A DNA stretch of 64,000 nt. Origin: a virus. The notes beneath the pieces were generated by a model that was given only the letters and a program-made list of their open reading frames with translations, was not told where the DNA came from and did not search any database. Below, in pieces: positions 7,471 to 29,672 of the stretch. Within the stretch, counting starts at the first letter, position 1; each line of letters starts with the position of its first letter. Where the stretch lies: positions 1 to 64,000 of IMG/VR virus record IMGVR_UViG_3300033149_001989. One strand, given 5' to 3'. A program made the position numbers and the translations under genes.

Positions 7471-7926
7471 TTACTCCTTACCCCACTCTTTACAAACAAA
7501 CCTTATACGGTCTCTACTTGGAACTCCCCTATAAATCGTTCTATAAACTTGTAGCCTACGTGAATCGGCTCTCACTTCTTTTATCTTTGCAATGTTAGCC
7601 TCAGATAAATCATTTATATTAATAGTTATAGTACAATCACCTTCTGGAATTTCTCCACCAACCGTATAATCAGGTTCATCCTGTCTCCTCCATCTTACGT
7701 GTGCAACAACCCCAGACAGAACGTCAGACGAATCTAACCAATATCTACCCTCACAAGTTGGGCAATACGGATTCAAGCTTGACTCATTAACACCATCATA
7801 TAGATTGGCACCACTACAAACAGGACACGCTGTGGGGTCACCTTCCAATACAAAAGTTACTGTTTGCCCGATTGCGCTCCTAATTTCATCTTTAATCACC
7901 TTAGTTGAGGGAAACTTTATTATCAT
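7471..7926 (-). CDS. Head completion/neck protein with zinc-binding motif
   Basis: A protein of about 151 residues carries two Cys pairs, CPVCSG and CPTCEG, separated by about 18 residues. This is a typical structural zinc ribbon. It lies in the order expected of head-closure or neck proteins, between adaptor-type genes and tail genes. The C-terminal half is predicted beta-rich and charged. Two starts are possible: a GTG at 7938 or an ATG at 7926, and I prefer the ATG. The head-closure role is inferred from position only. Confidence 0.6.
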   Translation of the reverse strand: MIIKFPSTKVIKDEIRSAIGQTVTFVLEGDPTACPVCSGANLYDGVNESSLNPYCPTCEGRYWLDSSDVLSGVVAHVRWRRQDEPDYTVGGEIPEGDCTITININDLSEANIAKIKEVRADSRRLQVYRTIYRGVPSRDRIRFVCKEWGKE

Positions 7927-14698: not shown

Positions 14699-15850
14699 TT
14701 AATCAACAAAACTTAATCTACCACCATTCGCTGATGAAATGGCGTGAAAGACCTTGTTAGAAACAGTTCGCCAATCAAATTTGGTATGGTTAACCGCAGC
14801 CAGTGCATCCTTTTTTCTATCCGCCAAGTAATTTCTATCAGAATATAACAAATTTAGCTTTGCCACAAAATCGTCAACACTTATAACACTACCCTTAAAT
14901 AAAGTACCAGCCATATACTCAGAACGTTCTATTTCTATATAATCAGCAGCGTTTCCCCAAATATCAAACAAATTACCGTGTCGTGGACATAGTATTGGAA
15001 TACCTGCCGCAGCACCTTCAACTAGAGATAAGCCAAACCCCTCACCTAAAGATGTATTAACATTAACATCCATAGTGTTATAAAGAATATTAATCTTATC
15101 AACAGTTAAAACTTTAGTACTAAGAATAAGTTTATCAGAAATACCGAAGTCATCAGCCAACGTTGGTAAATCATACGATATATCCTGATTAATAGAATGA
15201 ATTAGACATTTAACATCATCCTTATCTTTAGCAAATTGAGAAAAACCATCAAGAAACAGGTCAAGTCGTTTCCTATAACTATTTGAATTTATATTACCAA
15301 CTACAAAATATTTACTAAGACCAAACTGTTCCTTGACACCATCAATAGGTACAAATATACCCTTATCAACACCGTGATAAATTGCAGAAACATTTATAGT
15401 CGGATTAATTTCTAGTATCTTACTTTTAGAAAAATTGGTATATGTAAGTATCTCTTTTACACCAAAAGTACTAAGTGACAAAACATCATCCTTACTAATT
15501 GGTAAATTATTAATTGGAAATATCACCACAAACCTGGTATTACTTTCATAACCGCTAATTGTATTCTTAATATACTCAAGATACCTTATAACAATTGGTA
15601 AATCATTAAAAATGACCGCAACATCTGGATTTTCTCTCAAAACTAGATTTGCCGCAAAATCAAAAGAATATATATCCCCAGGAACACACCCAGGGTATAT
15701 GTAGTAATTACACGGATGCCTCATCCTTCCATCATAATTAATACCAAAAACACTCAAATCGCACTTGTTACAAAGATAATTACATATATTATGTGTTACT
15801 ACAGCAAACCCAGTTTGTTTTACAGCGTCTCCAATCCACAGTACCTTCAT
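14699..15850 (-). CDS. GT4-type glycosyltransferase (GT-B fold)
   Basis: A 383-residue glycosyltransferase starting KVLWIGDAVKQTGFAVVTHN, homologous to the start of the enzyme at 7901-9214. It has the GT4 donor-site block NTSLGEGFGLSLVEGAAAGI near residues 265-285 and a SYRKRLDLFLDGF segment also shared with that paralog. It is the last gene of the sugar island, next to the head protease. The shared N-terminus and RKRLDLFL block suggest that the two enzymes act on related substrates or in sequence. No membrane segment is present. Confidence 0.88.
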   Translation of the reverse strand: MKVLWIGDAVKQTGFAVVTHNICNYLCNKCDLSVFGINYDGRMRHPCNYYIYPGCVPGDIYSFDFAANLVLRENPDVAVIFNDLPIVIRYLEYIKNTISGYESNTRFVVIFPINNLPISKDDVLSLSTFGVKEILTYTNFSKSKILEINPTINVSAIYHGVDKGIFVPIDGVKEQFGLSKYFVVGNINSNSYRKRLDLFLDGFSQFAKDKDDVKCLIHSINQDISYDLPTLADDFGISDKLILSTKVLTVDKINILYNTMDVNVNTSLGEGFGLSLVEGAAAGIPILCPRHGNLFDIWGNAADYIEIERSEYMAGTLFKGSVISVDDFVAKLNLLYSDRNYLADRKKDALAAVNHTKFDWRTVSNKVFHAISSANGGRLSFVD

Positions 15851-15858
15851 TAGTCTCC

Positions 15859-16350
15859 CTATCCTGTTATATTACCATAGGTGATAACTCTATTCTTACC
15901 TCTAGACATCCTTGGAACTTTAGGTGATTCTTCTGATTCGCTTACAGGTTCATAAGTAGTTACACGCTCAACCTCGATTGCACTACTCCAATCCACAGTA
16001 ACATCATCACCTTGCATACTCCAATTAAGTTTATAAAGTTTGTTATCTTTCTCAACGATTGCAAAATCGTCAAACACGTCAGCAACCCAAGGACTACTCT
16101 GCACCTCATCCACTCTAGGTCCATTAATTGCTTCACGTATTTTCTTCTCCAGTTCCCAAAGCTCTTCCCCCATACTTAACTCACTTTCTGAGTCACTAGG
16201 AACCTTCCAATTCATTTTCTTTAATTGAGCCTTGCATATAGCAATTGCTCTTGATTCCTTATATTTTGGATTTTGCTTCATTACAGAACTAACACACTTT
16301 TCCATCCAAGCCGTTTGCTTGGGTGTTTCATTTTTTATTCCATATGGCAT
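15859..16350 (-). CDS. Phage head-region protein with acidic middle
   Basis: A protein of about 163 residues. The first 45 residues form a basic helical module, TPKQTAWMEKCVSSVMKQNP followed by YKESRAIAICKAQ, a pattern seen in many phage head proteins near the protease. The second half (VADVFDDFAIVEKDNKLYKL) is predicted beta-rich, and the C-terminus is Ser/Glu-rich. The ATG at 16350 lies one base after the stop of the preceding methyltransferase-like gene and has GTGGAGAAAG upstream. It is a structural-type gene stranded among sugar genes, which suggests that the island was inserted around it. Confidence 0.6.
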   Translation of the reverse strand: MPYGIKNETPKQTAWMEKCVSSVMKQNPKYKESRAIAICKAQLKKMNWKVPSDSESELSMGEELWELEKKIREAINGPRVDEVQSSPWVADVFDDFAIVEKDNKLYKLNWSMQGDDVTVDWSSAIEVERVTTYEPVSESEESPKVPRMSRGKNRVITYGNITG

Positions 16351-16351
16351 T

Positions 16352-16846
16352 TTACTTTCTCCACACTTCAAATATTCTTTTACTATGGTCTAAGTTACAA
16401 ACATCTTCATTAAGTATATCTAGATTAATAGACAAATATTTATAAAAACCACACGATTCAACTACAAATCCTAATTTAGTAAGTATCCTAGAGGTGGTAT
16501 CCCACCGAGAGGCTTCTATAACCACAACTCTAGCGTCAGATAAAAGACCAAAAAACTCCCCAATAACTTGATTTGTATTTCTTCTTAAGTCTACTCCGAG
16601 GGCAACTATAGCATCAAAACTACCATAATTAGGTTGTTCCCCCAGTTTACGTCTATACAACTTAACCGTATCAGTAATTAGTGGTTCCACATTAGGGTCA
16701 ACACCAACAAATAGGTCATAACTATCCAAGTAATTATATAGAGGATTATTTCCGCACCCAACCTCAAATATCCTGCGATACCCTTTAACATAATAAGCAG
16801 CCAGTGCTTGACGAACACTAAAAATATCTTTATCTAAGTAGTGCAT
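16352..16846 (-). CDS. Methyltransferase-like (Rossmann) protein
   Basis: A 164-residue protein with the SAM-binding motif I RIFEVGCGNNPLYNY at about residues 25-39 and an acidic motif II, FVGVDPN. It is shorter than standard class I methyltransferases and lacks a clear C-terminal substrate domain. It overlaps the end of a second methyltransferase gene by 13 bases. It may act as a small methyltransferase or a partner of its neighbour. Substrate unknown, probably a sugar intermediate, as inferred from the neighbours. Confidence 0.7.
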   Translation of the reverse strand: MHYLDKDIFSVRQALAAYYVKGYRRIFEVGCGNNPLYNYLDSYDLFVGVDPNVEPLITDTVKLYRRKLGEQPNYGSFDAIVALGVDLRRNTNQVIGEFFGLLSDARVVVIEASRWDTTSRILTKLGFVVESCGFYKYLSINLDILNEDVCNLDHSKRIFEVWRK

Positions 16847-17484
16847 TTTCTTGCCTTAATTCTTAATAAACATTTTGGAAAACCCGCTTTGTAACCGACC
16901 TTAGAAGCCAAACTTTTTGAGACTTCTAACCACCCGTGCACCTCACAAACAACATAATTCTCATCCTCAATCTCAAAGCCATCAAACAATCTGTTGATAC
17001 GGTTAGTATCATAAACCCTATAAAAAGGTTTACCTTTTGAGTTATTAACAATATAAGGAATACCAAAAGGTATTTGAGCTAAAATAACACCACCATTCTT
17101 AAGAACCCTTGAAAAGTGCTTAATACCCACTAAATCACCGTCTACAGCAAAACCACCACCATAATGCCCCAACCCCAAATGCTCTAGTAAAGATGGGCTG
17201 AAAACAACGTCAAAAAAGGAATCATCAAACGGCAAATCAAGAAGTTCACATTGTTTATATTCAAAATTATCTGCTCGCCACACATACTTCCAATTACCTC
17301 TGTCAGCACCATACACGGTAAAACCATAATCGCACAGCACTTTGGTAATCATATTATGACTAATAAATCCAGTATCTAATACTACATTACCCTCTATATT
17401 CTTCAAAAACCAAGGATAGTCTATATACCACTCTGTCTTTGGCTTAAAAAATTCCTTGTAATTAAAGTCAGTTACTGTTCTCAT
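16834..17484 (-). CDS. Class I SAM-dependent methyltransferase
   Basis: A 216-residue methyltransferase. It has a weak motif I (VVLDTGFISHNMITKVL), the motif IV region FDVVFSPSLLEHLGLGHYGG, and post-motif LKNGGVILAQIPFG, typical of Methyltransf_11-type enzymes. Motif I has lost the usual Gly-x-Gly. It overlaps genes on both sides by a few bases, so it is translated with the sugar island. It may methylate a sugar hydroxyl or carboxyl group. Confidence 0.75.
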   Translation of the reverse strand: MRTVTDFNYKEFFKPKTEWYIDYPWFLKNIEGNVVLDTGFISHNMITKVLCDYGFTVYGADRGNWKYVWRADNFEYKQCELLDLPFDDSFFDVVFSPSLLEHLGLGHYGGGFAVDGDLVGIKHFSRVLKNGGVILAQIPFGIPYIVNNSKGKPFYRVYDTNRINRLFDGFEIEDENYVVCEVHGWLEVSKSLASKVGYKAGFPKCLLRIKARKCTT

Positions 17485-18380
17485 AATTGATATTTCCTTA
17501 AAAAATCAACAATCCTCTTTTTATCTATCTTGTCACCCACACTAAATGTCATTTTTCTATCACCAACCCAACTTGGATGCGTTTTGGTTATACTATTATT
17601 ACCAACTTCTCTAAGCCAGCACCTTTCATCCCCTGGATTAGCCTGCCATACCATACCAACCTCAATAATAGGAATATCTGGTATATGGAATGCAAAACAT
17701 CTAGGGCCAGAATGCCCACCGACAATAAGAGAACAATTGCGTACCAACCTAGTGAACTCATCTATATTATTATACATCATAGGTATTACTTTGTCAAACT
17801 CACTATCTATATCCGACGGTTCTCCCATTTTCCAATACTCATACTTATCACCAAGATGGTTACGCACAATATCATATACTTTATTAATATCATTAATAGA
17901 AGTAATTCTATCCCTCGCTCTCACACCAAGTTTATTATTTCTATTCTGAAATATAATATACGATTTTAGCACTTTTTCACGCCTCAAGTACAACACTGGC
18001 AATCCCTTACCATATTTCAGATAGTACAAATCGAAGTATTGATAAATATAACGACACGTGTGCTGCACACCAGGGAAACCTGGATATAAAGAATTTGGTT
18101 GGCTAGTGTCAATTACTTTGTCCCAATTCTTATCATTTATATCCTTGTTGCGTGGATAATATTTCCAAGGAAGATAATAAGTTTGCTGCCAATTCCAATC
18201 GTCAACACTTAACTTCCATCTTTTAGACTCATAACCAAGAGGTGGAAAAACAATGTACACTTTATCATACCCCATATTTCTTGCTTTAAAATAGCAAGCT
18301 AATGAGTATCTAAAAATATCTGCAAACCCGATTGTACGTTTTGGTAGTTTTTCATACCCTCTAAACAATATTGTCTTCAC
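17481..18380 (-). CDS. GT-B-like glycosyltransferase, possibly GT9-related
   Basis: A 299-residue protein. Near residue 220 it has CSLIVGGHSGPRCFAFHI, which resembles the donor-binding loop of heptosyltransferase-type GT9 enzymes. An Arg-rich middle segment surrounds YLRREKVLKSYIIFQNR. The N-terminal half is Tyr- and Trp-rich and not recognisable. Given the heptose-type kinase in the same island, a heptosyltransferase-like role is attractive but unproven. It overlaps both neighbours by single codons. Confidence 0.6.
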   Translation of the reverse strand: MKTILFRGYEKLPKRTIGFADIFRYSLACYFKARNMGYDKVYIVFPPLGYESKRWKLSVDDWNWQQTYYLPWKYYPRNKDINDKNWDKVIDTSQPNSLYPGFPGVQHTCRYIYQYFDLYYLKYGKGLPVLYLRREKVLKSYIIFQNRNNKLGVRARDRITSINDINKVYDIVRNHLGDKYEYWKMGEPSDIDSEFDKVIPMMYNNIDEFTRLVRNCSLIVGGHSGPRCFAFHIPDIPIIEVGMVWQANPGDERCWLREVGNNSITKTHPSWVGDRKMTFSVGDKIDKKRIVDFLRKYQL

Positions 18381-19507
18381 TACATAATCCCCATTGGAAG
18401 TATTATTGATTTTGGATTCGACTTCAATAGCTTATCAACAATAGGTCTTGAAAAATTTATTGCAGTAACTACAACGTCCATCCCATCAACAGCATATTCA
18501 TTCGTTATAGAAATAGGTAAATTAACAAAATATTTTTTATCTTTACTAACGTCATCATCAACAATATACTTCATATTTAACAAAGATGGCATATAATATG
18601 TTAAAACAGGTAATTGTAACGCTGCTCCATAACCAATTAGATTGCCACTTGGTAGTTCTTCCGACATGATGCCCATCCTGCTGATAAAGAAATTAAACTT
18701 CCTTATAATCTCCTCAGATTCAATTGGTTTAAAGGAATATGTTATACCGTTTAACTTAGATAATAAAACCATAAAAGTGCCCCAATACTGCATATTAAAG
18801 TCAAAACCCATAATACCAAAACCAAATTTTTTAGCAAGATAAGCAATAGACCTCATAGAAAAGTATTGACAGTGATGAGTATATACTTGGTCAAATCTAC
18901 CATACTTTACCAACGCATCCAAGCAGGGGAATTCCAACGCTATAATAGACTTATCATCCAATTGTTGCAACGATTCCATTAAAATACACGGTTCTTCTAT
19001 ATGTTCTAAAACGTGGCTACTAACAACCAAAGAATTCCTGAATTTACTAAAATCAACATTTTCGTAAAAATCGCCAATTATTGTAACACCAGGAAAATAA
19101 CCCTCTTTCAGTATTGGGTCAATTGCCGTAATATTCTCACCAAATTGTGATAACAAACCTAATGTCCCTAAATCGTTGGCACCAATCTCAACAACGTTTT
19201 TAAACGCTCTATCTCCAATAATTTCCCGCATAAACTGATAGAACCTTTTCTTATGTTTAATAGAACTATCACTCCTAGATGTTCTAAACGCATAGTTGTC
19301 ACCATATAAAACCGCAGGGTCTGGTAATGCCCCAACCTGAACGTGAGAACACTTTGGGCATCTCTGTAATTGTTGGTCTACGAACATATCAGAATCACTA
19401 GGTTTCTCATCTGTAAGCATATCAGTTAGCGGAAAACTGGGTAAATCCCTTATAATACTTACACTGCTACCACAAATGCAACATTTATCCCTATGTCTCG
19501 TAATCAC
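18380..19507 (-). CDS. Sugar C-methyltransferase-type protein with N-terminal zinc motif
   Basis: A protein of about 375 residues with N-terminal CCICG and CPKCSHVQ, then VVEIGANDLGTLGLLSQFG (SAM motif I), VVSSHVLEHIEEP and a C-terminal domain with GYGAALQLPVL. This is the Methyltransf_13/14 layout of NDP-hexose C-methyltransferases and related enzymes. I choose the GTG at 19507, with AAGGGGAG five bases upstream, instead of an upstream GTG at 19561 that lies deep inside the previous gene. It overlaps that gene by 17 bases. The product would be a branched or methylated deoxysugar. Confidence 0.85.
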   Translation of the reverse strand: MITRHRDKCCICGSSVSIIRDLPSFPLTDMLTDEKPSDSDMFVDQQLQRCPKCSHVQVGALPDPAVLYGDNYAFRTSRSDSSIKHKKRFYQFMREIIGDRAFKNVVEIGANDLGTLGLLSQFGENITAIDPILKEGYFPGVTIIGDFYENVDFSKFRNSLVVSSHVLEHIEEPCILMESLQQLDDKSIIALEFPCLDALVKYGRFDQVYTHHCQYFSMRSIAYLAKKFGFGIMGFDFNMQYWGTFMVLLSKLNGITYSFKPIESEEIIRKFNFFISRMGIMSEELPSGNLIGYGAALQLPVLTYYMPSLLNMKYIVDDDVSKDKKYFVNLPISITNEYAVDGMDVVVTAINFSRPIVDKLLKSNPKSIILPMGIM

Positions 19508-20339
19508 AATTTCTCCCCTTAAGATAACCATATAAAGCATCTTGCCAACTACGACTATCACGAAGTTTCTCCGATGCCAGAGCCGTAAATCTTGGTTTTA
19601 AATTATACTCATCAAATTCATCATGATTCGCAGGTTCAATTTCAGTATCGCTTCCGATTATATGTGCAATTTCCGTAGCAAAATTATATAAACTGGTGTA
19701 ACCGCTATTTGTTATATGGTAGACACCATAATCTATATCCGCAATGGTACGGTATATACCATATGCCACATCACCAATATAAGATGGAGAATCGAACTTA
19801 TCAACCGCCATTCTAATTTTATCTTTAGTATTTAGCCACTCGATTATCTTTTCAACAATACCAGGTGCGCCGCCATGCCTCTTACCATAACAGATTGGTA
19901 AGCGAAAGATATAATACTTCGAGCAAATATTTTGTACAACCAACTCAGCCGCATATTTAGACACACCATATATACACCTTGGGTTAGGAATATCACTCTC
20001 CACATACGGTTTAGTAGCATAACCATCAAAGACGGTTTCCGAACTTATCTGTGCCAAGGTAATATTATTATCATAACATATTCTAGCCAGTTTGCTAGTA
20101 AAGACAGTGTTAATTTCAAACGCCTTAACAGGATATTTCTCACAAGGTTCTACACTATTAAGAACTGCACAATTAATAATAACTTCTGGATTATACTGCT
20201 TTATAAAATCAACAAGGTCATCAAACTGTGTCACATCGAAGTCATCACTACCAACACTAGCAACCTTCCACTTATTTAAAACAAATTCCTTGGTAATTCC
20301 AGTACCAACCAAACCAGTTCCGCCAAAAATCAATATCAT
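19491..20339 (-). CDS. RmlD-type NAD(P)-dependent sugar reductase
   Basis: A 282-residue short-chain dehydrogenase. It has the nucleotide-binding loop FGGTGLVGTGI at residues 5-15, a Ser-Ser-Glu-Thr-Val-Phe-Asp-Gly catalytic block, and Tyr-x3-Lys in YGVSKYAAELV. The family includes dTDP-4-dehydrorhamnose reductase, which reduces C4 keto groups of nucleotide sugars. No rmlA, rmlB or rmlC is visible, so the exact substrate is not rhamnose by context. It is embedded between a radical SAM gene and a methyltransferase gene. Confidence 0.87.
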   Translation of the reverse strand: MILIFGGTGLVGTGITKEFVLNKWKVASVGSDDFDVTQFDDLVDFIKQYNPEVIINCAVLNSVEPCEKYPVKAFEINTVFTSKLARICYDNNITLAQISSETVFDGYATKPYVESDIPNPRCIYGVSKYAAELVVQNICSKYYIFRLPICYGKRHGGAPGIVEKIIEWLNTKDKIRMAVDKFDSPSYIGDVAYGIYRTIADIDYGVYHITNSGYTSLYNFATEIAHIIGSDTEIEPANHDEFDEYNLKPRFTALASEKLRDSRSWQDALYGYLKGRNCDYET

Positions 20340-20348
20340 ACTTAACTC

Positions 20349-21452
20349 CTAAACAAAATTTATGTGTGGTGGAGGGTTTTTTAAAGTATATAAAAAGTCA
20401 TTTATATAGTGATGTAAACAGTTGGTCTCGCATTCCTTATTAACATTAAGCGTCTGAACTTTTCTTTGAACTTCCCAATATCTATCACCTTCCACAATGT
20501 CACTGAATGAAGTTTCTTTTATATTACCCATATAAAACTCATCTTTCCGATAACCAAGCAAATGCCCGCACGGTGCAACATCACCATTGGCATTGATTGT
20601 CATATTAAATTGAGTACCATAACAAACCTTGAAGTCATTTTTACCCATATTAAGTAACTTATTTCTTTTCATCACTACGTCATACTCATTAGTAGCCAAC
20701 TTCTCAGCCTCACGTAAGATTGGTTCTAATTTGTAATACTCCTCGTGCTTCACATTAAGCTTACCATCTGGGGTATCAGAACAAGGTTTCGCCACAAAAT
20801 AATCCACCCCCAAATCTTTGCTCAGCCGTGCTAATGGAAATATTTGAAACATATTATCTCTAATAATAACCATCTGGGTGCCAATAGTGACAGGTAAATT
20901 ATATTCCTTTTTTAGTTCAACAGACTTTCTTATAATATCAATAACATGGCCAAATCTGTCCTTACCGTGAACAATTTTATAAATATCCCTATTCGCTGCG
21001 CCAATACTAAACCTAACCCACACAAACGATTCCAAAAACTCAAGAAGCCGAGATTCTTTTAAAGCAATTCCATTAGTAGCTATACCAAAATCAATATTAC
21101 TCTTCCTGCAACACTCAAGCATATCATATAAATCTGGATGTATTGTATTTTCTCCTTCACCGACAAGACTAATCGACCTAACACCAAGTGACTCAGCATC
21201 TTTAAGTAATTCACAAAATACATTCTTTGGTAGGAGAACCTGCTCACCAATAGATGTCTTACCAATTACAGTACCATAACAATACTTACAAGCCAAGTTA
21301 CACCCACTAGCAACCCCCATTTCTATATGAAGCGGAGCAACTCTTTCGCCACGTTGCCAAGCCTGTAATCTATCCAAATGCCACAATAATTTGTGACCAG
21401 TCATATTAAACCTATCCACTACTCTTTTCCCAAACTTATTATTGCTGGACAT
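20349..21452 (-). CDS. Radical SAM/SPASM enzyme, copy 2
   Basis: A 367-residue radical SAM protein. The CNLACKYC motif (Cys 51, 55, 58) binds the catalytic 4Fe-4S cluster. A C-terminal SPASM-like set includes CYGTQFNMTINANGDVAPCG and CETNCLHHYIND. It is paralogous to the protein at 22610-23671: both end LKNPxPxxN and share VAPLHIE/VPMYIE before the cluster. Such enzymes in surface polysaccharide clusters act on sugar or amino-sugar intermediates. The reaction here is unknown. Only the last base-pairs overlap the transketolase gene upstream. Confidence 0.87.
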   Translation of the reverse strand: MSSNNKFGKRVVDRFNMTGHKLLWHLDRLQAWQRGERVAPLHIEMGVASGCNLACKYCYGTVIGKTSIGEQVLLPKNVFCELLKDAESLGVRSISLVGEGENTIHPDLYDMLECCRKSNIDFGIATNGIALKESRLLEFLESFVWVRFSIGAANRDIYKIVHGKDRFGHVIDIIRKSVELKKEYNLPVTIGTQMVIIRDNMFQIFPLARLSKDLGVDYFVAKPCSDTPDGKLNVKHEEYYKLEPILREAEKLATNEYDVVMKRNKLLNMGKNDFKVCYGTQFNMTINANGDVAPCGHLLGYRKDEFYMGNIKETSFSDIVEGDRYWEVQRKVQTLNVNKECETNCLHHYINDFLYTLKNPPPHINFV

Positions 21453-21886
21453 TCCTTAAAATATGAATCCATAACAGCTTCTCTAGTTTCTTGAGAACTT
21501 TTCGGGAAATAACTTTTAATATTCACAAAATGTTTAAAAATCTCATCACTAGCAATGGTGTGTGAAGGTCCCAATGTAGGATAATAAGCATAACCAACAA
21601 TTTTAACATTAAGATTTTGTGAGTCTATATCAAGTTTTATCTGCTCAAACGGTCTCTCTAATATAAAAGGGGTAATCGAATAGATATATGGTTTGTACCC
21701 TTCCAATGCCATACCAGCAGCCATACCAACGATTGTTTGTTCACAAATACCAACATTAATTATTTTGTTAGGAAATGATGATTTAATATTATCGAAAATA
21801 CCATACCCAATGTCACCGAGTAGAAGAACAATCTTATCATCCCTAAAAACTAATTCATATAATACCTGCCCGAACTCTTTTCTCAT
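21419..21886 (-). CDS. Transketolase pyrimidine-binding subunit, truncated
   Basis: A protein of about 155 residues matching the middle (pyrimidine-binding) domain of transketolase. It has INVGICEQTIVGMAAGMALE, in which the Glu activates the thiamine diphosphate ring, and later GPSHTIASDEI. The C-terminal domain of normal transketolases is missing; the frame ends about where this domain would begin. It follows the separate N-terminal subunit with a short overlap. I choose the ATG at 21886 (GGAG upstream). The split two-subunit form is common in polysaccharide clusters, but loss of the third domain is notable. Confidence 0.85.
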   Translation of the reverse strand: MRKEFGQVLYELVFRDDKIVLLLGDIGYGIFDNIKSSFPNKIINVGICEQTIVGMAAGMALEGYKPYIYSITPFILERPFEQIKLDIDSQNLNVKIVGYAYYPTLGPSHTIASDEIFKHFVNIKSYFPKSSQETREAVMDSYFKECPAIISLGKE

Positions 21887-22607: not shown

Positions 22608-22609
22608 AT

Positions 22610-23671
22610 CTATATATAATTATCGTATGGTTGAGGATTTTTTAACCTCCATAAGTATAAGTTGATTTTATCCATTCTACAATTGCTGCGACATTGCTGA
22701 ACATCAAGCTCCTCAATCATCTTTTTAACTTTCTTCCTACGATTAGAATGCCAAATGGTAGAAAAACTATCCTTATTTATATTACCATAAATAAATTTAT
22801 CATTACCAATAAAAGAACTACACGCCCACAAATTTCCATTAGAATCCAAAAACGACCAAAAATTACACGCATTGCATTGCGAATAACCCTTCTTAGCATT
22901 AAGTTGCTTCATTGTATTATACCTAAAAATAATCTTAAAATCATCTGTCTCACACTTTGATAATTCTTCGGCTATTGAATAATAACTTTCATAGGATATA
23001 TCCTTGTACGCCTTATTATTACTCATAGGATGCTGAGAGTATGGTTTGATAACCAAATAGTCAACACCAATGTCCCGAACAATATTTGCCAATTGAACAA
23101 CCTCTTTCGAATTCTCAGGAATTAGTAACAATTGAGCACCAATTGTGCAACCAATTTCGTTACTTTCCCTAAATTTTACAGCATAGTCTATATTTTTAAG
23201 CAATCGTTCAAAGTCGTCTTCCTTAGTGCCGTGAATTAATGAATATGATTTCTTATTGCTCGCATCAACACTAAATTTAATCCAAGTTAGCAGCGGGAGT
23301 ATTTGAGACGCTAAAAGAGGTTTAAGTAAAACACCATTAGTTCCTAAAGCCGTATCAATATTAACCTTTTTGGCTACCAATATTAGTTTAGCAATATCTT
23401 TATGAATAAGCGGTTCCCCTTCTCCAGCAAACAGCATACTCTTAACACCCATCAATTTCATATCCGATACGGCAGACGTAAAATTACTGACATTTAAGGA
23501 GTCAGCCTTATAGTTCAAGTAGTCAAACGCACAAAATACGCAACGATGATTACATAATTTTGTCGGTGACACTTCAATATACATCGGAACTATATCCTCA
23601 CCACTCAACCACCTATAAACTTCGTGAGGATGGTACATGAGTTTCTGTGCATCTATTTGATACTCATCCAT
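22610..23671 (-). CDS. Radical SAM/SPASM enzyme, copy 1
   Basis: A 353-residue radical SAM protein with CNHRCVFC (Cys 40, 44, 47) and a C-terminal SPASM-like Cys set around CNACNFWSFLDSNGNLWACS and CRSNCRMD. The AGEGEPLIHKD motif is the usual GGE-type SAM-binding loop. It is a paralog of the enzyme at 20349-21452; the two flank the split transketolase. Family members often act on peptides or on sugars in surface clusters. Substrate unknown. The start ATG overlaps the stop of the kinase/nucleotidyltransferase gene. Confidence 0.88.
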   Translation of the reverse strand: MDEYQIDAQKLMYHPHEVYRWLSGEDIVPMYIEVSPTKLCNHRCVFCAFDYLNYKADSLNVSNFTSAVSDMKLMGVKSMLFAGEGEPLIHKDIAKLILVAKKVNIDTALGTNGVLLKPLLASQILPLLTWIKFSVDASNKKSYSLIHGTKEDDFERLLKNIDYAVKFRESNEIGCTIGAQLLLIPENSKEVVQLANIVRDIGVDYLVIKPYSQHPMSNNKAYKDISYESYYSIAEELSKCETDDFKIIFRYNTMKQLNAKKGYSQCNACNFWSFLDSNGNLWACSSFIGNDKFIYGNINKDSFSTIWHSNRRKKVKKMIEELDVQQCRSNCRMDKINLYLWRLKNPQPYDNYI

Positions 23672-25170
23672 TATTTAAATAACCCCTCAATAAATTTGCA
23701 AATTTTGTCATGTTCTATACTTACTTTATTACCGATATAAGTAGTCGCAATAGAAGCAAACACGCTTCCACAAAATAGAACAATTTCTACTGGAGCATTA
23801 TTACACGCTAAAGGAGCGACCACAGAAAGAAACGCATCACCTGCCCCAACTGGGTCTATAACATTATTAACCATTGCAGGTACAGTAGCAACTCTACCAC
23901 CTATCTTACCAACACAACCATTAGGACCCCTAGTAACAATTATGTCACCAGGAAATTTCTCTACCGCCTCATCAATACTATGATAATCCTCTAATTGCTC
24001 GTGCATCGCCAATATAAATTCACGTTCATTAACACAGAATAATTGATTTCCCTTCCTCTTAAAGTATTTACGTAAAGAATGGCGACCAGTGTTACCTGCA
24101 TTCATTTGCGTATTAACAGCCAAGTATTTAGACTTTTTAATCAGATAACTTCGTGCCTCTTTATTTAGCATACCGTGTCCAGAATCACAAACCAATACTA
24201 AATCATACTTGGCCGCATCATCGAAAGAAGAATTAATCAAACCGCTACGAACTGGACTAGAATCAAATTCGTAAACTTCAAACACGCTTCCAATTGGGTA
24301 CTCATTAACATAACGACGTTTAGTAATAGTATTGGCACCCTGTCTTATAACTGGTAAAAACTTAACCCTATTGTCTAAACCATCCTCTATCACCTTTTCC
24401 CAATCATTTCCAACCATAGCAACTAACTTAACATTATCACAAAACCCAGAAAGATTATTAGCAATATTAAGCGGTACACCTGCATGCCGCTCAACTCGGT
24501 CAGTACTAAATACTAGCATTGGTGCTTTGTTTGACTTACCAATAGTTCTACCATAACAATACTCATCAATAACAGCTTCACCGATAATAAGGATACTCAT
24601 ATCTCTTATATTATCAAGAAATGATACAACGTCAGCACCTGTATAATTTTCCGATAACACGTCAATATATGATAAAGCCTCATCTGTAATAGCAGACATA
24701 TACCTATTTATAAGGCGAGTAGAACTAAAAGTAAGTTCATCAGTAGTAACAAATTTACCACCGCAAGAAGTTACTGCTTCCTCTTCACGCTTTAGTGCGT
24801 CCATATAAGTTTTACTTGCGTCTATACTACGTTTACCTTTAGCATACACGTCTGGCTTAATATATTTAATAGTCTTAACCGCATCACTCCACTGGTTTAC
24901 AGCAACATAATCAACATAAACTAAAGACGCAATTGCTTCAGCACGTATATGTTCATTAAATGCTGGTCTATTATAACCCTTATTAACAAACCTGTCTGGG
25001 GTTACTGTAACCACTAAAATATCACCCAATTTGCTGGCTGCCTCCAAATGACGTAAATGACCAATATGAAGGAGGTCAAAAACTCCATGACACAACACCA
25101 CAGTACTACCATTACTTCGCCAGTCTACTCTTAGCTTAGATAGTGTTTCTAAATCAGTTATCTTACTCAT
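23671..25170 (-). CDS. Bifunctional nucleotidyltransferase-kinase, HldE-like with reversed domain order
   Basis: A 499-residue fusion. Residues 1-150 are a cytidylyltransferase-type domain with LCHGVFDLLHIGHLRHLE (HIGH at 35-38). Residues about 190-499 are a PfkB/RfaE-type sugar kinase with ILIIGEAVIDEYCYGRTIG, RHAGVPLNIANNL and DPVGAGDAFLSV (catalytic Asp). In HldE, which phosphorylates and then adenylylates D-glycero-D-manno-heptose 7-phosphate, the kinase comes first. Here the order is reversed. The product is probably an NDP-activated heptose or similar sugar. The gene overlaps both neighbours. Confidence 0.87.
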   Translation of the reverse strand: MSKITDLETLSKLRVDWRSNGSTVVLCHGVFDLLHIGHLRHLEAASKLGDILVVTVTPDRFVNKGYNRPAFNEHIRAEAIASLVYVDYVAVNQWSDAVKTIKYIKPDVYAKGKRSIDASKTYMDALKREEEAVTSCGGKFVTTDELTFSSTRLINRYMSAITDEALSYIDVLSENYTGADVVSFLDNIRDMSILIIGEAVIDEYCYGRTIGKSNKAPMLVFSTDRVERHAGVPLNIANNLSGFCDNVKLVAMVGNDWEKVIEDGLDNRVKFLPVIRQGANTITKRRYVNEYPIGSVFEVYEFDSSPVRSGLINSSFDDAAKYDLVLVCDSGHGMLNKEARSYLIKKSKYLAVNTQMNAGNTGRHSLRKYFKRKGNQLFCVNEREFILAMHEQLEDYHSIDEAVEKFPGDIIVTRGPNGCVGKIGGRVATVPAMVNNVIDPVGAGDAFLSVVAPLACNNAPVEIVLFCGSVFASIATTYIGNKVSIEHDKICKFIEGLFK

Positions 25171-26113
25171 TAATCTTTATCACCACTGACTTAATACCGC
25201 TTGGTCTTTTAGCATTACCAATACCAAGATATTCAAATGACCTATTAAACTCTGTAACAAATTCTTGCAACGCTCTATATTCATGGTCCATCCATCCTCC
25301 ACCAAAAACATCATAACCACAAAATTCGTCAAAACATATGATAGTCCCAGGTACAATACAATTATTTATATTAAACAACACATCTCTAGTTGATGAATAC
25401 AAGTCACAATCAATATGTATAAACGAAAGTTTGGTATTAAAACGACTAAAATTTGGAACAGTATTCTTAAACATTCCTATCCAAAGTTTAGTTCCATCAC
25501 CAAAATCGGGAATCTCATCAACCCTGTACTTACCCTTCTTATTATCCATAAGAGTTCTATTGCCCGATATTTTCCAGTCCTCTGGTAGTCCTTCAAAACT
25601 ATCAAACAAGTGCAACGTTACTCCTGCTGGTAGGTACTGTAGTATCTTCTTAGTTGATGTGCCACTGCTCACACCAAATTCCGCCCAATCACCATCAATA
25701 GCGAGATTACGAAGCGCAAAATCTAAAGCCTTATCATCAAATGCTTTTGATACCATATATTCTAAACTATCCTTACTAACAGGGCTAATTTTACCACTAG
25801 GAAGCTTACGAAATACATCATTATCACTGTGATGCGTAGAAATTTCCAAAATTTTTACAGGAGAAATACTCCTAAATGAGTGGTAAGTATTCGGTTTTAT
25901 TGTTATTGGTTCATCATAAGGTAACAATGGAATATCTACATTCTCATATTTAAGAATCCCACCACCTTCAACACAATAAAAAGTTTCATACTTCTTTTTA
26001 TGACAATGATAACTTGAAGTGTACCCTCCAGATAACTCTAAGAATTTACCGCAGTACAAATCATTATTAACAATCCAAACTTCTCTTCCCCAATCCTTAA
26101 AAACTATCTTCAT
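25163..26113 (-). CDS. Cupin-TylF-type methyltransferase fusion
   Basis: A 316-residue two-domain protein. Residues 1-100 are a cupin (YHCHKKKYETFYCVEGGG, then PNTYHSF), as in mannose-6-phosphate isomerase type II and sugar isomerase-like cupins. Residues about 125-316 are a TylF/MycF-type O-methyltransferase with DWAEFGVSSGTSTKKILQYL (SAM site), LHLFDSFEGLPEDW and FIHIDCDLYSSTRDVL (metal Asp). The fusion would bind a sugar or isomerise it, and methylate a hydroxyl. It lies between NeuB and the kinase gene. The pairing of these two domains is uncommon as far as I know. Confidence 0.85.
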   Translation of the reverse strand: MKIVFKDWGREVWIVNNDLYCGKFLELSGGYTSSYHCHKKKYETFYCVEGGGILKYENVDIPLLPYDEPITIKPNTYHSFRSISPVKILEISTHHSDNDVFRKLPSGKISPVSKDSLEYMVSKAFDDKALDFALRNLAIDGDWAEFGVSSGTSTKKILQYLPAGVTLHLFDSFEGLPEDWKISGNRTLMDNKKGKYRVDEIPDFGDGTKLWIGMFKNTVPNFSRFNTKLSFIHIDCDLYSSTRDVLFNINNCIVPGTIICFDEFCGYDVFGGGWMDHEYRALQEFVTEFNRSFEYLGIGNAKRPSGIKSVVIKINE

Positions 26114-26935
26114 TTAATACCTCCTGAGCTTCTTAATTATAGGAAGCTCAGAGTCATACACCACCTTCTTTCCATCACCAAGAGCAAATTGAATATTTTT
26201 AACGTAACGACCAATACGAAACATATCTTCTGGTTCTATGCTTGCTGCTTGGTCTGTACCATACATTGCCCTATCAAGGGTAACGTGAAATTCAACCGCC
26301 TCAGCCCCAAAAGCCACCGCAACGGGAATATAAACAATATCTGGTGAGTGATTAGAAAATCCTATTTTATGTTCAGGATATTTTTTAACTAGTTTCGGTA
26401 TATAACTAAGATTAATTTCATTTGGTGAACAAGGGTAAGTAGACGTACAGTGAAGAATGTATTTTATTTGCTTACCAAAAAATTTCACAACATCATCAAT
26501 TTCTTTCTCTGTACTCATTCCAATTGAAACTATCAATGGAATTCTAAGACTTTTTAGCTTCTCCAGAAGTTCTTTATAAGTTATAAGAGCAGAGGGTATT
26601 TTCATAAATTCTGGGCTAAATTCAGCAATCATGTCTGCTGACTTAACATCCCACACCGAGGCAATCCATTTAATACCAATTGCCCGACAATATCTATCTA
26701 TTTCACAATAAGCATCAAAATCCAGCTCGAGACCCTCTTTTTGTGCCCTATTTGTAGTCCCCCAAGGGGATTCTCTATACTTATCAAGCTCCTCTCTACT
26801 ATATACCAAATCAATAGTTCTTTTTTGGTATTTAACATAATCCATACCAGCACTTTTAGCCAAAGCCATAAGTTTTTTCGCTATTTCTAAATCACCATTA
26901 TGGTTTATGCCAATTTCCGCAATTTTAATTACCAT
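26114..26935 (-). CDS. NeuB-family nonulosonate synthase lacking the SAF domain
   Basis: A 273-residue synthase of the sialic acid/legionaminate/KDN type. It condenses phosphoenolpyruvate with a six-carbon sugar. Visible motifs are EIGINHNGD (8-15), KYQKRT, SIGMSTEKE, HCTSTYPCSP (162-171), IGFSNHSPD and EFHVTLDRAMYGTDQAAS, including the metal-binding His residues. Usual members have about 340 residues with a C-terminal antifreeze-like SAF domain. Here the frame ends at KKLRRY, just before that domain. I start at ATG 26935 (GGGAGGAAGA upstream). With the CMP transferase and phosphatase nearby, it points to a nine-carbon keto acid sugar. Confidence 0.9.
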   Translation of the reverse strand: MVIKIAEIGINHNGDLEIAKKLMALAKSAGMDYVKYQKRTIDLVYSREELDKYRESPWGTTNRAQKEGLELDFDAYCEIDRYCRAIGIKWIASVWDVKSADMIAEFSPEFMKIPSALITYKELLEKLKSLRIPLIVSIGMSTEKEIDDVVKFFGKQIKYILHCTSTYPCSPNEINLSYIPKLVKKYPEHKIGFSNHSPDIVYIPVAVAFGAEAVEFHVTLDRAMYGTDQAASIEPEDMFRIGRYVKNIQFALGDGKKVVYDSELPIIKKLRRY

Positions 26936-27620
26936 TCTTCCTCCCAACAATATATATCACGCCAGCCCCATGATAATTAATATCTAATGTCTCACAATAC
27001 ACAACCTCTAAGAATAACTTATTAAACAAGCGAGTTAAAGTTTTATCAGTAAAGTAAGAAACGTGGTCATTCTCTAGTGCCCGTTTCTTTTCATAAATTT
27101 TACCAAAATTTGGCACCTCAACAAATAAAACTCCATTAGTCCTTAATAACGAAACCCAAATTTGTAATACCTGTGTTGGATTGGGAACGTGCTCTACTAC
27201 GTGAGAAGCATAAATCAATTCCCAACCAGAACCAACAACGGTAATCAAATCTTTACTAGTAATATCCGCCTTTACAATGCTAAATCCCCTATCTCCAGCC
27301 AGTCTTATAAATTGATTATTTAAATCAACCGAAGTTACATCAATAGTAGTATTAGACAAATATGACTCCAAACACGCTGGACCCGAACCAAGGTCTAATA
27401 CTTCCTTATTAGTAAACTTGGACAAAATCTTCCAATTATATTCTAATTTACGATGATAATTCTTTCGGTGGCTAAACTTTTGAAATTCATATTCCGAATT
27501 TGCCTTGCTGTAATCCTGCTGTACAAACCCGCACTTTAAGCACTTATACAATTCAACTTCACCACCATGAAACGTCCTACCCCACTCTTCAAGATGCCCG
27601 TTACAAAGTTCACAATTCAT
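26925..27620 (-). CDS. Class I methyltransferase with N-terminal zinc ribbon
   Basis: A 231-residue enzyme with N-terminal CELCNG and CLKCGFVQ forming a zinc ribbon, then VLDLGSGPACLESYL (SAM motif I), VTSVDLNNQF and YASHVVEHVPNPTQVL. This is the layout of Methyltransf_23-type proteins in polysaccharide clusters. It overlaps the cytidylyltransferase upstream and NeuB downstream. It probably methylates an intermediate or the final glycan. Substrate unknown. Confidence 0.85.
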   Translation of the reverse strand: MNCELCNGHLEEWGRTFHGGEVELYKCLKCGFVQQDYSKANSEYEFQKFSHRKNYHRKLEYNWKILSKFTNKEVLDLGSGPACLESYLSNTTIDVTSVDLNNQFIRLAGDRGFSIVKADITSKDLITVVGSGWELIYASHVVEHVPNPTQVLQIWVSLLRTNGVLFVEVPNFGKIYEKKRALENDHVSYFTDKTLTRLFNKLFLEVVYCETLDINYHGAGVIYIVGRKNGN

Positions 27621-28266
27621 ACCCGCCCCTTAAAATAATTTCCGTTAGTTTCAAATCATCAATCGTATCAATATCTATTGCTTCTGCTAAACTTGTCTCA
27701 AGCATATAAGCCTTATCGATTAAACGACAACTACCAGCAACAAGTTCCCCAGTTAAAATACCATATATTGCACCAGTTTCGAAATAATCGTGTCCAGAAA
27801 AAGTATGCTTAAGTGGTCTATTACATGGGTCATAATTCTTAGCACTACCATTAGCCCACCAAAATTTGTCAAATTTACATACAGACAAACCACTCTTGCA
27901 ACCAGATTGTTCAAACCCCTTAACAAACGAGTTAACAGTATCCACTCTTAGCAGGGGGACAGTGCATTGAACTAGATAAGAATACTTGGCACCAACTTTC
28001 TCAGCAGCATTTTTATACACAATATCAAGATTAAAGTTATCTGTAGCAGTATTTGGGTCTTGGCTAATCACTCTTGCCCTGCAACCCCAAGCCACATCCT
28101 TAATATCATCACTATCTGATACAACATATACACTATTACCAAATACACTTCTCCGCAAAGTTGATATAACATATGATATAAGCGGTTTGCCATTCAGTAG
28201 GTATATGTTTTTATTCTTTAATCTCTTACTACCACCACGTGCAGGTACAAAAACCGCCCTATCCAT
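27610..28266 (-). CDS. CMP-sugar synthetase (acylneuraminate cytidylyltransferase type)
   Basis: A 218-residue enzyme beginning VFVPARGGSKRLKNKNIYLL, the CTP-binding motif of NeuA/PseF/LegF-type enzymes. It also has VYVVSDSDDI, VQCTVPLLRVDTV and a terminal IDIDTIDDLKL metal-binding motif. It activates a nonulosonate or related keto sugar as a CMP derivative. The length fits a single-domain enzyme. It overlaps the methyltransferase and glycosyltransferase genes on either side. NeuB, this enzyme and the KdsC-like phosphatase together complete a plausible CMP-nonulosonate route. Confidence 0.9.
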   Translation of the reverse strand: MDRAVFVPARGGSKRLKNKNIYLLNGKPLISYVISTLRRSVFGNSVYVVSDSDDIKDVAWGCRARVISQDPNTATDNFNLDIVYKNAAEKVGAKYSYLVQCTVPLLRVDTVNSFVKGFEQSGCKSGLSVCKFDKFWWANGSAKNYDPCNRPLKHTFSGHDYFETGAIYGILTGELVAGSCRLIDKAYMLETSLAEAIDIDTIDDLKLTEIILRGGYEL

Positions 28267-29221
28267 TCTCGTCCAACTCCATCAGTACATTTGCTATTCT
28301 CTCTGCTGAATGTCCATCCAAAACGATTTTCTTCGCTACCCACGCTTGCTGCTCTGCTAAATAGGTGTCCAAGTGAGTTGTAAAATCAACTAAGTGACGT
28401 TCATCACGTAAAAACCACTTCTCTGGAATAGCAGTGTGTGCCCGCTTTTCAGTACTCCAAAACAAAGTCGGTACTCTAGCACACAAACAAGTTAGAAAAG
28501 TGCTTATACTAGATGCCACCAGCGCAAAATCTACATCCTTTATTAAATTCTCAGGAAAATCAATGCCTACTTTTGGATACGCAATTCTATTAAAAACGTT
28601 TTGGACTTTAGTGAATCTACTGGCTCTAGGATGACTCGAAACTAAAATCTCTCTTGGTTCGAGAATTTTTATGATTCGCCACCATCTTTTGTACCTCTCA
28701 ACAGCCTGACTTTTATCTCTTGGATACGACTTATCATAATGAATAGTAAAAGTATCAAAAATCATCACTCTACCAGGTTTGGGAGTTCTTATAGTATTAA
28801 ACGCTGCATCATAACGTGGATTACCAGTTAAATGCCAAGTTGGAGGAATAACACCAAACCCTGCGTAATCAACTTCAAGCATTCCAGCAACAAACATATG
28901 ATATTTAACACATCTTTTGGCATCCAATGATTTTATATCAACTAAATCCTCAGAAATAGTACCAAAATGAACACCTTTATCTATCAACCGTTTCAAGTCG
29001 TTCTCATATCTACTGTGAAACGCAGATACAACAACGTCCCCACGATGAACATCATCCACATTCTTAACTATCTTGCTCCCCCCATCACTGTGTTGAACAG
29101 TAATATATTTAGCCGCTTGTGATGTACTACCAGCAGTAAAAATAAACCTCTTTTTTAAATGTTTAGCCACCTCGTTGAGCACCCTACCTTGATGCTCGTG
29201 ATAAGCATTAAGATATATCAT
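28259..29221 (-). CDS. GT-B-like polysaccharide biosynthesis protein
   Basis: A 320-residue protein of the UDP-GlcNAc 2-epimerase / CDP-glycerol transferase superfamily. It has HLTGNPRYDAAF near residue 132, ILVSSHPRASRFTKV and DFALVASSISTFLTCLCARV near residue 232, which are the donor-site signatures of this superfamily. It could be a transferase or an epimerase-like enzyme. In its context next to the CMP-sugar synthetase, a transferase is more likely. The start ATG follows AAGGAGAGGAATT. The last residues overlap the cytidylyltransferase start. Confidence 0.72.
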   Translation of the reverse strand: MIYLNAYHEHQGRVLNEVAKHLKKRFIFTAGSTSQAAKYITVQHSDGGSKIVKNVDDVHRGDVVVSAFHSRYENDLKRLIDKGVHFGTISEDLVDIKSLDAKRCVKYHMFVAGMLEVDYAGFGVIPPTWHLTGNPRYDAAFNTIRTPKPGRVMIFDTFTIHYDKSYPRDKSQAVERYKRWWRIIKILEPREILVSSHPRASRFTKVQNVFNRIAYPKVGIDFPENLIKDVDFALVASSISTFLTCLCARVPTLFWSTEKRAHTAIPEKWFLRDERHLVDFTTHLDTYLAEQQAWVAKKIVLDGHSAERIANVLMELDENG

Positions 29222-29672
29222 AATTCCTCTCCTTTAGTCTTAAAACAGCCTCCAGAACGCAACCACAACCGCCACCACGCTTCAAAACAAAATCTGCCTC
29301 CTTTTTTACCTCTGGAAGAGCATCAGATGGTACAAATGACACAGCACATTTCTTGAATACTGGTATATCATCAAAGCAATCCCCAATGTAAGCAGTCTCC
29401 TCTAAATTAACTATACTTGATAACCCTTCATGTTTCTTCATAAAAGGAATGTAGTGGTACTCTATTCCAATCTCATCGGCACGCAACTTTTTAGTAATTT
29501 TATCACTACCAGAACTGACCATTATTACTCTCAAACCACTATCCTTAGCAAACCAACACCCAACAGAATCATTTGCGTGGAATGCTATACACAGTTTACC
29601 TTGCTTAGAATAATAAAGTCTGCCATCGGTTAAAACACCATCGCAGTCAAAAACCAAATTCTTAATCTTCAA
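29208..29672 (-). CDS. KdsC-type HAD phosphatase
   Basis: A 154-residue HAD subclass C phosphatase. It has FDCDGVLTDG (nucleophile and acid Asp at 9 and 11), MVSSGSDKIT, a Lys near 63, and GDCFDDIPVF (97-106). The C-terminal RGGGCGCVLEAV resembles the substrate-covering tail of KdsC tetramers. The family removes phosphate from KDO-8-phosphate, or from nine-carbon sugar 9-phosphates. It is the first gene of the sugar island, starts with a TTG inside the end of the portal gene, and is therefore coupled to late head-gene translation. Confidence 0.88.
   Translation of the reverse strand: MKIKNLVFDCDGVLTDGRLYYSKQGKLCIAFHANDSVGCWFAKDSGLRVIMVSSGSDKITKKLRADEIGIEYHYIPFMKKHEGLSSIVNLEETAYIGDCFDDIPVFKKCAVSFVPSDALPEVKKEADFVLKRGGGCGCVLEAVLRLKERNYDIS

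Follow-up and report, generated by a model that had tools for sequence, protein, structure and literature searches.

The window analysed here, a 64,000-nucleotide stretch from the 133.8 kb genome of an uncultured tailed phage, carries 16 tightly packed sugar-type genes on the minus strand (16352-29672), directly after the portal gene, and thereby raises the question of what such a set does among head genes. Virion glycosylation has been documented for a few actinobacteriophages. It is probable, in our assessment, that the interval represents a sugar-synthesis cassette that can be exchanged, occupies a constant position in the late head operon and serves virion glycosylation, and a sialic-acid-like sugar is probably used to coat the phage's own particle.

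The cassette is bounded by conserved head-module genes

The ORF map and comparison with relatives delimited the variable cassette to 16352-29672 (13.3 kb, minus strand). Its conserved left border is the portal gene (29662-31164, minus strand; phrog_2739, 2.8e-7), which shows 58-73% identity in 20 relatives, and its right border is a small conserved head-module gene on the same strand (15859-16350, start ATG at 16350) that matches a head maturation protease family (phrog_23555, 1.8e-6) and has homologues at 38-67% identity in all nine of the nine relatives whose sequence includes this border. The initial annotation had set the limits at 14699-29672, with 15859-16350 as a structural-type gene inside the island; these limits had to be redrawn, as this gene and the GT4 gene at 14699-15850 are conserved backbone outside the variable part. 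Of the flanking genes named there, the portal was confirmed, but the supposed head protease at 14025-14600 (minus strand; 56-76% identity in relatives) gave no protease family match, only phrog_3313 (unknown function), and the protease-like match falls in 15859-16350 itself. The approximately 16 tightly overlapping sugar genes were all recovered in place on the minus strand. ORFs across 14699-29672 overlap by 1-71 bp or are separated by gaps of <10 bp, the cassette genes are co-oriented with the late head genes, and motifs are unbroken in every cassette enzyme checked. The GC content of the cassette is slightly lower than that of the flanks (35.9% versus 37.7%).

The site is fixed and its contents are exchanged

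The locus keeps its place while its contents are exchanged, and so is no one-off insertion: every relative has a cassette there, and portal identity is uncoupled from cassette sharing. Relatives G008 and G012 have portals that are 89% identical and flanks that are 73-89% identical on both sides, and share none of their cassette genes (0/11 and 0/14, respectively), whereas the portals of G008 and G005 are only 64% identical, yet 9 of 11 cassette genes are common to both at a mean identity of 76%. Cassette types are scattered on the portal tree, with 9 changes where 5 would be the minimum. Conservation is seen at both borders but not in the contents between them, and within the lineage cassettes have passed from phage to phage. 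Non-backbone genes lie directly after the portal in 20 of 20 related portal-bearing IMG/VR records, with no empty site, which does not support the proposed insertion into an otherwise uninterrupted head operon. At least six mostly unrelated gene sets occupy the site among these 20 relatives and this phage, including dTDP-rhamnose-type, GDP-mannose/aminosugar, aminotransferase/CDP-glycerol-type and Maf-like sets and the NeuB type of this phage. Sugar pathways in the other cassettes include Rml-type, GDP-mannose dehydratase/aminotransferase and Maf-like ones; a DHQ-synthase-like enzyme occurs in one of type C, and for a Maf-like protein from G011 the PDB search gave matches to the GT2 part alone.

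The lineage consists of uncultured tailed phages whose genomes measure at least 134-153 kb. Its TerL had a single match among 50,697 records, to a non-T4 phage at 22%, and a T4-like backbone was not found. No prophage came up when GTDB species genomes were scanned with TerL, and no tail-fibre gene was recognised in the cassettes scanned. The same arrangement occurs in the unrelated phages S-CBS4, ctQWt234 and TJE1.

A nonulosonate enzyme trio is encoded together

A NeuB-family synthase, a 9-phosphate phosphatase and a CMP-synthetase are encoded in one cassette, and family matches and motifs support both the complex-sugar synthesis and the KDN-like trio proposed at the outset. The KdsC/KDN-9-phosphate-phosphatase-type HAD phosphatase (29208-29672, minus strand; NF058599, 4.7e-24; TIGR01670) carries the motifs DCDGVLTDG and GDCFDD, matches PDB chains of KdsC and KDN9P phosphatase, and has homologues (45-54%) in type E cassettes. 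The CMP-nonulosonate synthetase of NeuA/PseF type (27610-28266, minus strand; PF02348, 2.8e-18; TIGR03584, 1e-20) matches PDB NeuA chains and has the motif ARGGSKRLKNKN. The nonulosonate synthase (26114-26950, minus strand; PF03102, 5.8e-61 over residues 28-262), the only NeuB among 26 records, conserves the metal-binding His positions of SiaC, and a Pfam search found no SAF domain in it. All three fall below equivalog cut-offs (NF058599, 85 versus 180 bits; TIGR03569, 207 versus 400; TIGR03584, 74 versus 206). The missing SAF domain and the presence of the phosphatase are only suggestive of a KDN-type route, with mannose-6-phosphate as candidate substrate and KDN as candidate product.

KDN is one possible product. 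Since methyltransferases, radical SAM enzymes and heptose-type genes accompany the trio, the gene content points to a product that would be more elaborate than KDN. Pattern scans of viral contigs found no relatives of NeuB or the HldE-like protein, and no paper on phage-encoded nonulosonate synthesis was found in the part of the literature covered.

Other enzymes of the cassette

By family matches, the cassette encodes, besides the trio, a putative kinase/nucleotidyltransferase, transketolase, reductase, radical SAM enzymes and methyltransferases, all on the minus strand; the NeuB, CMP-sugar synthetase, KdsC-type, HldE-like, split transketolase, RmlD and two radical SAM assignments of the initial annotation were each supported in this way. 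The HldE-like protein (23671-25170; PF01467, 1e-15; PF00294, 6e-19; NF008454, 2.9e-33, below cut-off) has its nucleotidyltransferase domain first, followed by the PfkB kinase. Two radical SAM/SPASM enzymes were assigned, one at 22610-23671 (PF04055, 1.4e-16; PF13186; CNHRCVFC motif) and the other at 20349-21452 (PF04055, 4.8e-16; PF13186, 1.5e-11; CNLACKYC motif), and between them lie the two transketolase-like halves, N-terminal (TPP) at 21855-22607 (PF00456, 6.5e-17; GDG...NN motif) and pyrimidine-binding at 21419-21895 (PF02779, 1.1e-15; GICEQ motif). An RmlD-like NAD(P)-dependent sugar reductase is found at 19491-20339 (PF04321, 9e-57; TIGR01214, 4e-55, below cut-off).

Of the five methyltransferases or methyltransferase-like proteins claimed, four contain a methyltransferase domain: a SAM methyltransferase with an N-terminal Cys motif (26925-27620; PF13489, 3.9e-15), a cupin plus TylF-type sugar O-methyltransferase (25163-26113; PF05711, 1.2e-8; PF07883 below cut-off; homologue at 45% in relative G016), a sugar C-methyltransferase-like protein with zinc-binding and methyltransferase domains (18380-19561, start codon uncertain; PF13489, 5.3e-10; PF08421, 1.6e-5) and a DUF268/MT11 methyltransferase (16834-17484; PF03269, 3.6e-10; PF08241, 1.4e-6; homologues at 27-30% in type A cassettes). 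The fifth, encoded by the last gene of the variable cassette (16352-16846), is too divergent for a Pfam match, and its glycine-rich motif was seen by eye in the translation.

Glycosyltransferases and the candidate acceptor

Several glycosyltransferases had been counted in the interval; the sole family-supported one is the GT4 at 14699-15850 (minus strand; PF00534, 7.5e-13; phrog_2170, 2.8e-35), a glycosyltransferase encoded among virion genes and conserved in the head module (47-61% identity in relatives; missing at this spot only in G019). A second backbone GT4, its paralogue, lies at 7901-9214 (minus strand; phrog_2170, 9e-44), with homologues in the relatives whose sequence covers the region. 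The protein encoded at 28259-29221 (minus strand) is a candidate sugar transferase by position only: it had no match in Pfam, NCBIfam, PHROG or PDB, its profile comparison with a type A glycerophosphotransferase-like family gave nothing reliable, and its single-sequence structure prediction (pLDDT 35) was unusable. That encoded at 17481-18380 (minus strand) likewise had no family match, and its weak local profile match to a type B family is unreliable.

The candidate glycan acceptor is the probable major capsid protein (11479-12393, minus strand), the product of the module's most conserved gene (76-89% identity in relatives), a homologue of which occupies the capsid position in Bacillus phage Stills. 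A profile search of the PDB with its alignment gave no match, and the structure predicted from a five-sequence alignment was unusable (pLDDT 30).

Discussion

In the mechanism we propose, NeuB would join phosphoenolpyruvate to a sugar phosphate by condensation, the HAD-type phosphatase would strip the phosphate from the product, and the CMP-synthetase would activate the dephosphorylated product with CTP. The remaining cassette genes would produce or modify additional sugars through methylation and radical-SAM chemistry, and soluble glycosyltransferases, the backbone GT4s included, would attach the sugars in the cytoplasm to nascent virion proteins, in a manner that may be likened to flagellin glycosylation in some bacteria. 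Swapping cassettes would alter the particle glycan and leave the virion proteins unchanged. Virion glycosylation is favoured by the conserved GT4s in the head/tail module and by precedent in mycobacteriophages; against it, acceptor and linkage are putative and a NulO transferase is not among the family-assigned proteins.

The enzymes might instead change the LPS, the capsule or some other envelope glycan of the host through its lipid carriers and flippases, and so shut out competing phages or keep progeny off debris. The cassette enzymes could feed into pathways of the host even if no membrane protein is encoded with them, bacterial surface glycans typically involve HldE-like and NeuB enzymes, the variety of cassettes could mirror that of host O-antigens, and comparable pelagimyophage islands with glycosyltransferases and rfaE-type genes have been read as host O-chain modification (PMC7029224). 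This nevertheless appears unlikely to us. No multi-pass membrane protein was found among 153 cassette ORFs, and none credible in the 133.8 kb genome, in a search whose positive control worked; accordingly neither the gtrABC-type set (membrane flippase, bactoprenol glucosyltransferase, membrane Gtr) nor Wzx/Wzy or ABC export with an initiating transferase was found, and flippase, polymerase, GtrA/GtrB-like protein and initiating phosphosugar transferase are absent from all cassettes, with no credible candidate elsewhere in the genome. Cytosolic virion glycosylation is favoured over flippase-based modification of the host envelope for this reason, and membrane-type serotype conversion was rejected. 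A late head-operon position would also leave little time against competitors, and both the borders and the conserved GT4s sit within the head module. Of the two destinations first suggested for the sugar, the virion is thus the leading one, whereas the host surface by a classical route is disfavoured.

Sugars placed on modified phage bases against restriction, as in T4-type glucosylation or TET-linked glycosylation, would accord with the frequent action of phage glycosyltransferases on DNA and with the thymidylate-synthase-fold protein (PF00303) of three relatives, but this genome has no such protein and the neighbours of the cassette are head genes, not replication genes. Neither CMP-nonulosonate nor dTDP-rhamnose pathways are known to provide DNA-modification donors. 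TET/JBP (PF12851) had no match in this genome or its relatives, a weak point as that search matched no control genome either; overall, DNA hypermodification seems very improbable. We give similarly little credence to a small soluble or lipid-linked metabolite, such as a signal, an analogue of a nucleotide sugar or a compound that evades defences. The pair of radical SAM enzymes, the split transketolase, the many methyltransferases and the DHQ-synthase-like enzyme of a type C cassette recall natural-product clusters, but no export system was seen, conserved glycosyltransferases stand at the locus, and cassettes of types B and C encode ordinary pathways to deoxysugars. An assembly chimera, or a bacterial cluster of O-antigen type that was inserted once and has decayed, was rejected as exceedingly improbable. 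No evidence in its favour was found; genes overlap at the joint with the portal, 20 other records (contigs of 138-153 kb among them) show this architecture, motifs are unbroken throughout and the strand skew is continuous.

Virion glycosylation by exchangeable cassettes suggests a broader, tentative idea to which we give somewhat less than an even chance, namely that the site is a phage serotype locus, dedicated to cassette swapping, through which phages with near-identical protein shells would wear chemically different coats and the coat type would spread horizontally, uncoupled from the phage that carries it. If true, a lineage-wide site of unit-exchanged sugar pathways would mean that phages vary their surface chemistry as bacteria vary O-antigens, with testable predictions on how they adsorb, attach to biofilm or debris, and escape recognition. 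The locus also suggests that rare sugars (nonulosonates, branched and amino sugars) can be made by pathways that are compact and soluble, possibly with protein-directed transferases.

The Bacteroides KDN pathway consists of KDN-9-P synthase, phosphatase and CMP-KDN synthetase. The same three enzyme classes are predicted here, and the best curated model for the phosphatase is KDN-9-P phosphatase, although scores lie below equivalog level, many extra tailoring enzymes are present and the substrate is putative. Among phages, Synechococcus phage S-CBS4 has a GT4 homologue and a methyltransferase between portal and capsid, and podovirus ctQWt234 has radical SAM, GT, PhyH, methyltransferase, NodB-like and GT genes after the capsid gene; both sets are smaller, on unrelated backbones and without NeuB. 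Mycobacteriophages bear glycans on capsid and tail-tube subunits (Freeman et al. 2023, as cited in PMC12691614, PMC13313380 and PMC12619734) and, according to these citing papers, resemble this phage in that genes for glycosyltransferases and methyltransferases accompany their virion genes, but their systems comprise a few genes, whereas this lineage encodes and exchanges entire pathways of sugar synthesis. The pelagimyophage/cyanomyophage host recognition cluster (PMC7029224) is likewise a variable island in a structural region with glycosyltransferases and rfaE-type sugar genes; it differs in having a T4-like backbone, a size of 34-45 kb and, between VrlC and gp14, a content of tail-fibre and mixed genes, in contrast to a compact, sugar-dominated cassette after the portal of a non-T4 lineage. 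Megavirinae glycosylation clusters (PMC10117803) also specify rare bacterial-type sugars, used for virion fibrils, with 6-33 genes that differ between clades, but these belong to eukaryotic giant viruses and are clade-specific, with no exchange among near relatives at a single site. Bacterial O-antigen and capsule loci share with this one conserved flanks around an exchangeable centre of nucleotide-sugar genes, transferases and methyltransferases, whereas here Wzx, Wzy and an initiating transferase are lacking and the site is a phage head operon. Conserved borders, non-homologous contents and uncoupling from the backbone phylogeny, the marks of an O-antigen-like locus, were all found, and the locus may, though we rate this a little below even, be the phage counterpart of the bacterial O-antigen locus, working by a soluble mechanism free of lipid carriers.

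Borders and gene content of the variable locus

In the window, which comprises bases 1-64000 of a 133,760-base IMG/VR virus record, ORF calling and Pfam/NCBIfam scans bore out the minus-strand gene list of the initial annotation, and sequence motifs were intact in NeuB, the HAD phosphatase, the CMP-synthetase, both radical SAM proteins, both transketolase halves, RmlD and the HldE-like enzyme. NeuB, NeuA and the phosphatase had no PHROG family match. Neighbouring genes overlap or almost abut along the whole stretch between the portal (29662-31164) and 14699; terminator-like sites were not in excess, and strand skew showed no shift. Promoter-like sites as a whole were not in excess; one perfect sigma-70 consensus (TTGACA-17-TATAAT) lies within the cassette on the coding strand (17797-17769, minus strand).

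Relatives were gathered by searching with the terminase, portal and GT4, giving approximately two dozen records, four of them contigs of 138-153 kb. Directly after the portal, all 20 relatives with a full portal carry genes outside the conserved backbone of the lineage, mostly non-homologous to those of the window. The right border was present in nine records (two of them near-identical), where the cassette ends at a homologue (38-67% identity) of 15859-16350, which encodes a small protein matching the N-terminal part of the head-maturation-protease family phrog_23555. This gene is followed by a homologue of GT4 14699-15850 (47-61%) in all but G019, and a homologue of 14025-14600 follows wherever the sequence extends that far. 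This conserved gene order delimits the variable cassette to 16352-29672 and assigns 15859-16350 and GT4 to the backbone; the initial annotation had placed both within the island, the former as a structural-type gene. Cassettes with both borders range from ~4.0 kb (G015) to 13.3 kb (window). No empty site was found among the related records, so the earlier description of the island as inserted is wrong; the locus is almost certainly a fixed one that holds exchangeable sugar cassettes.

Cassette types and their exchange

Type A cassettes (G003, G013, G015, G020/G014 and partly G004, all related IMG/VR records) encode a CDP-glycerol glycerophosphotransferase-like protein, a MobA-like nucleotidyltransferase-GNAT fusion, a class-III aminotransferase and methyltransferases. 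Type B (G005, G008, G009, G017) carries GDP-mannose 4,6-dehydratase (6e-139), epimerase, NUDIX, DegT aminotransferase, FkbM methyltransferase and sugar C-methyltransferase genes, and a conserved family that is GT2-like by eye, without a Pfam hit. Within type C (G010, G011, G012), G012 has RmlA, RmlC, RmlD, an RmlB-like protein, four GT2-type proteins, radical SAM and DegT, and G011 additionally has MptE/Maf-like domains (one in a GT2 fusion), a DHQ-synthase-like enzyme and a 2-hydroxyacid dehydrogenase. Type D (G019) has epimerase-type genes, methyltransferases and a B12-binding radical SAM protein. Type E (G001, G002, G007, G016 and partly G006) has an SIS isomerase, GT2, nucleotidyltransferase and kinase, an MptE/Maf-like protein, and a phosphatase 45-54% identical to that of the window. 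PF01973 presumably takes in Maf flagellin-glycosylation proteins; a PDB search did not confirm the Maf assignment of the PF01973-type protein. Because several records are fragments, G004 and G006 were typed on one or two genes only.

Among the 26 records, NeuB was found in the window phage only. Outside the lineage, NeuB had a 45% match in a single-cell record of the Kyanoviridae and a 37% match in a phage of 484 kb, each surrounded by other sugar genes. Marine virus AG-345-L05 (MH319754.1, unannotated Kyanoviridae) has a sugar cluster of NeuB, DegT aminotransferase and nucleotidyltransferase type near psbA.

Portals can be 86-89% identical, yet the cassettes may have no genes in common: for G008 and G012 the overlap is 0 of 11 and 0 of 14 cassette genes, between flanks of 73-89% identity on either side. 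Conversely, portals only 61-64% identical can accompany a largely common cassette, as in G008 and G005 (9 of 11 genes, mean identity 76%; flanks 53-64%). Mapping the six types onto the portal tree takes nine changes (minimum five), and well-supported branches by themselves force at least three for type A and at least three for type B. Types were nevertheless clustered beyond random (2 of 200 shuffles equally low), as is expected with frequent, not constant, exchange. The evidence that cassettes are exchanged as units is direct.

Probable product and acceptor

Synthesis of a nonulosonate-type sugar by the window phage is probable. Its NeuB (278 aa) lacks the C-terminal SAF domain, whose arginine in meningococcal NeuB reads the N-acyl group of the substrate, making a substrate without an N-acyl group plausible. 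The adjacent KdsC/KDN-9-P-phosphatase-type enzyme suggests that substrate and product would be phosphorylated, as in the KDN route; KDN itself as the product is rather unlikely. The presence of an HldE-like enzyme and of transketolase halves points to a sugar derived from a heptose or another ketose, which would be either the substrate or a second component; RmlD, radical SAM/SPASM proteins and methyltransferases would tailor the sugar. By position only, 28259-29221, between the phosphatase and CMP-synthetase, is a candidate nonulosonate transferase.

In hydrophobicity scans, none of 153 cassette ORFs had two or more membrane-like segments, and genome-wide only four ORFs of at least 100 aa reached two and none three; the four are 17530-17949, antisense to a cassette gene, and three short ORFs. 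The five-helix control PsbA scored three. The scans thus gave no sign of GtrA/GtrB, of a flippase or polymerase, or of a multi-pass initiating transferase. Since the cassette also lies in the late head operon, attachment in the cytoplasm is favoured, with soluble proteins as acceptors and virion proteins encoded in the same operon foremost among them; we lean towards the virion as acceptor.

Other features of the phage and its relatives

Adjoining TerL, the ribonucleotide reductase large subunit (33625-36702, minus strand; 1025 aa) is interrupted by an intein bearing a LAGLIDADG endonuclease domain; those of relatives are 672-693 aa, apparently without an intein. Three further intein- or LAGLIDADG-bearing genes lie in the remaining pieces of the phage's genome (L048, L049, L050), encoding a uracil-DNA glycosylase (L048:11971-13476), a DruA-like (Druantia) protein (L050:1879-3924) and a metallophosphoesterase (L050:6916-8664). 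An array of 25 tRNA genes (L049:7595-16908) and one further tRNA (L050:5454-5526) were found, with RNA-ligase-like and CCA/poly(A)-polymerase-like genes a few kb from tRNA genes. An AAA ATPase adjoins a DUF2201 metallopeptidase/VWA-like protein (60263-62969, plus strand), like a MoxR-VWA pair. Partial thymidylate-synthase-fold proteins (~215 aa) in G003, G019 and G020, not in the window phage, are possibly base-modifying enzymes.

Comparison with known systems

TerL had no match above 22% in 50,697 phage records, which leaves the lineage without close described relatives. Similar arrangements occur in unrelated phages: S-CBS4 has a GT4 homologue and a methyltransferase between portal and major capsid; podovirus ctQWt234 (MW202801.1) has radical SAM, GT, PhyH, methyltransferase, NodB-like and GT genes directly after the major capsid gene; and Tetrasphaera phage TJE1 has nucleotidyltransferase, kinase, epimerase, methyltransferase and GT genes upstream of the terminase. 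Mycobacteriophage virions, according to Freeman 2023 as relayed by PMC12691614 and PMC12619734, have glycosylated capsid and tail-tube subunits, and the glycans impair recognition by antibodies. In pelagimyophages the structural region contains a hypervariable island of 45 kb that includes glycosyltransferases and was read as serving host O-chain modification (PMC7029224), and Megavirinae have clade-dependent clusters of 6-33 genes for bacterial-type sugars on fibrils (PMC10117803). Unlike these three cases, the locus described here is a compact, sugar-dominated cassette situated at one constant joint of this lineage, with direct evidence of exchange as a unit.
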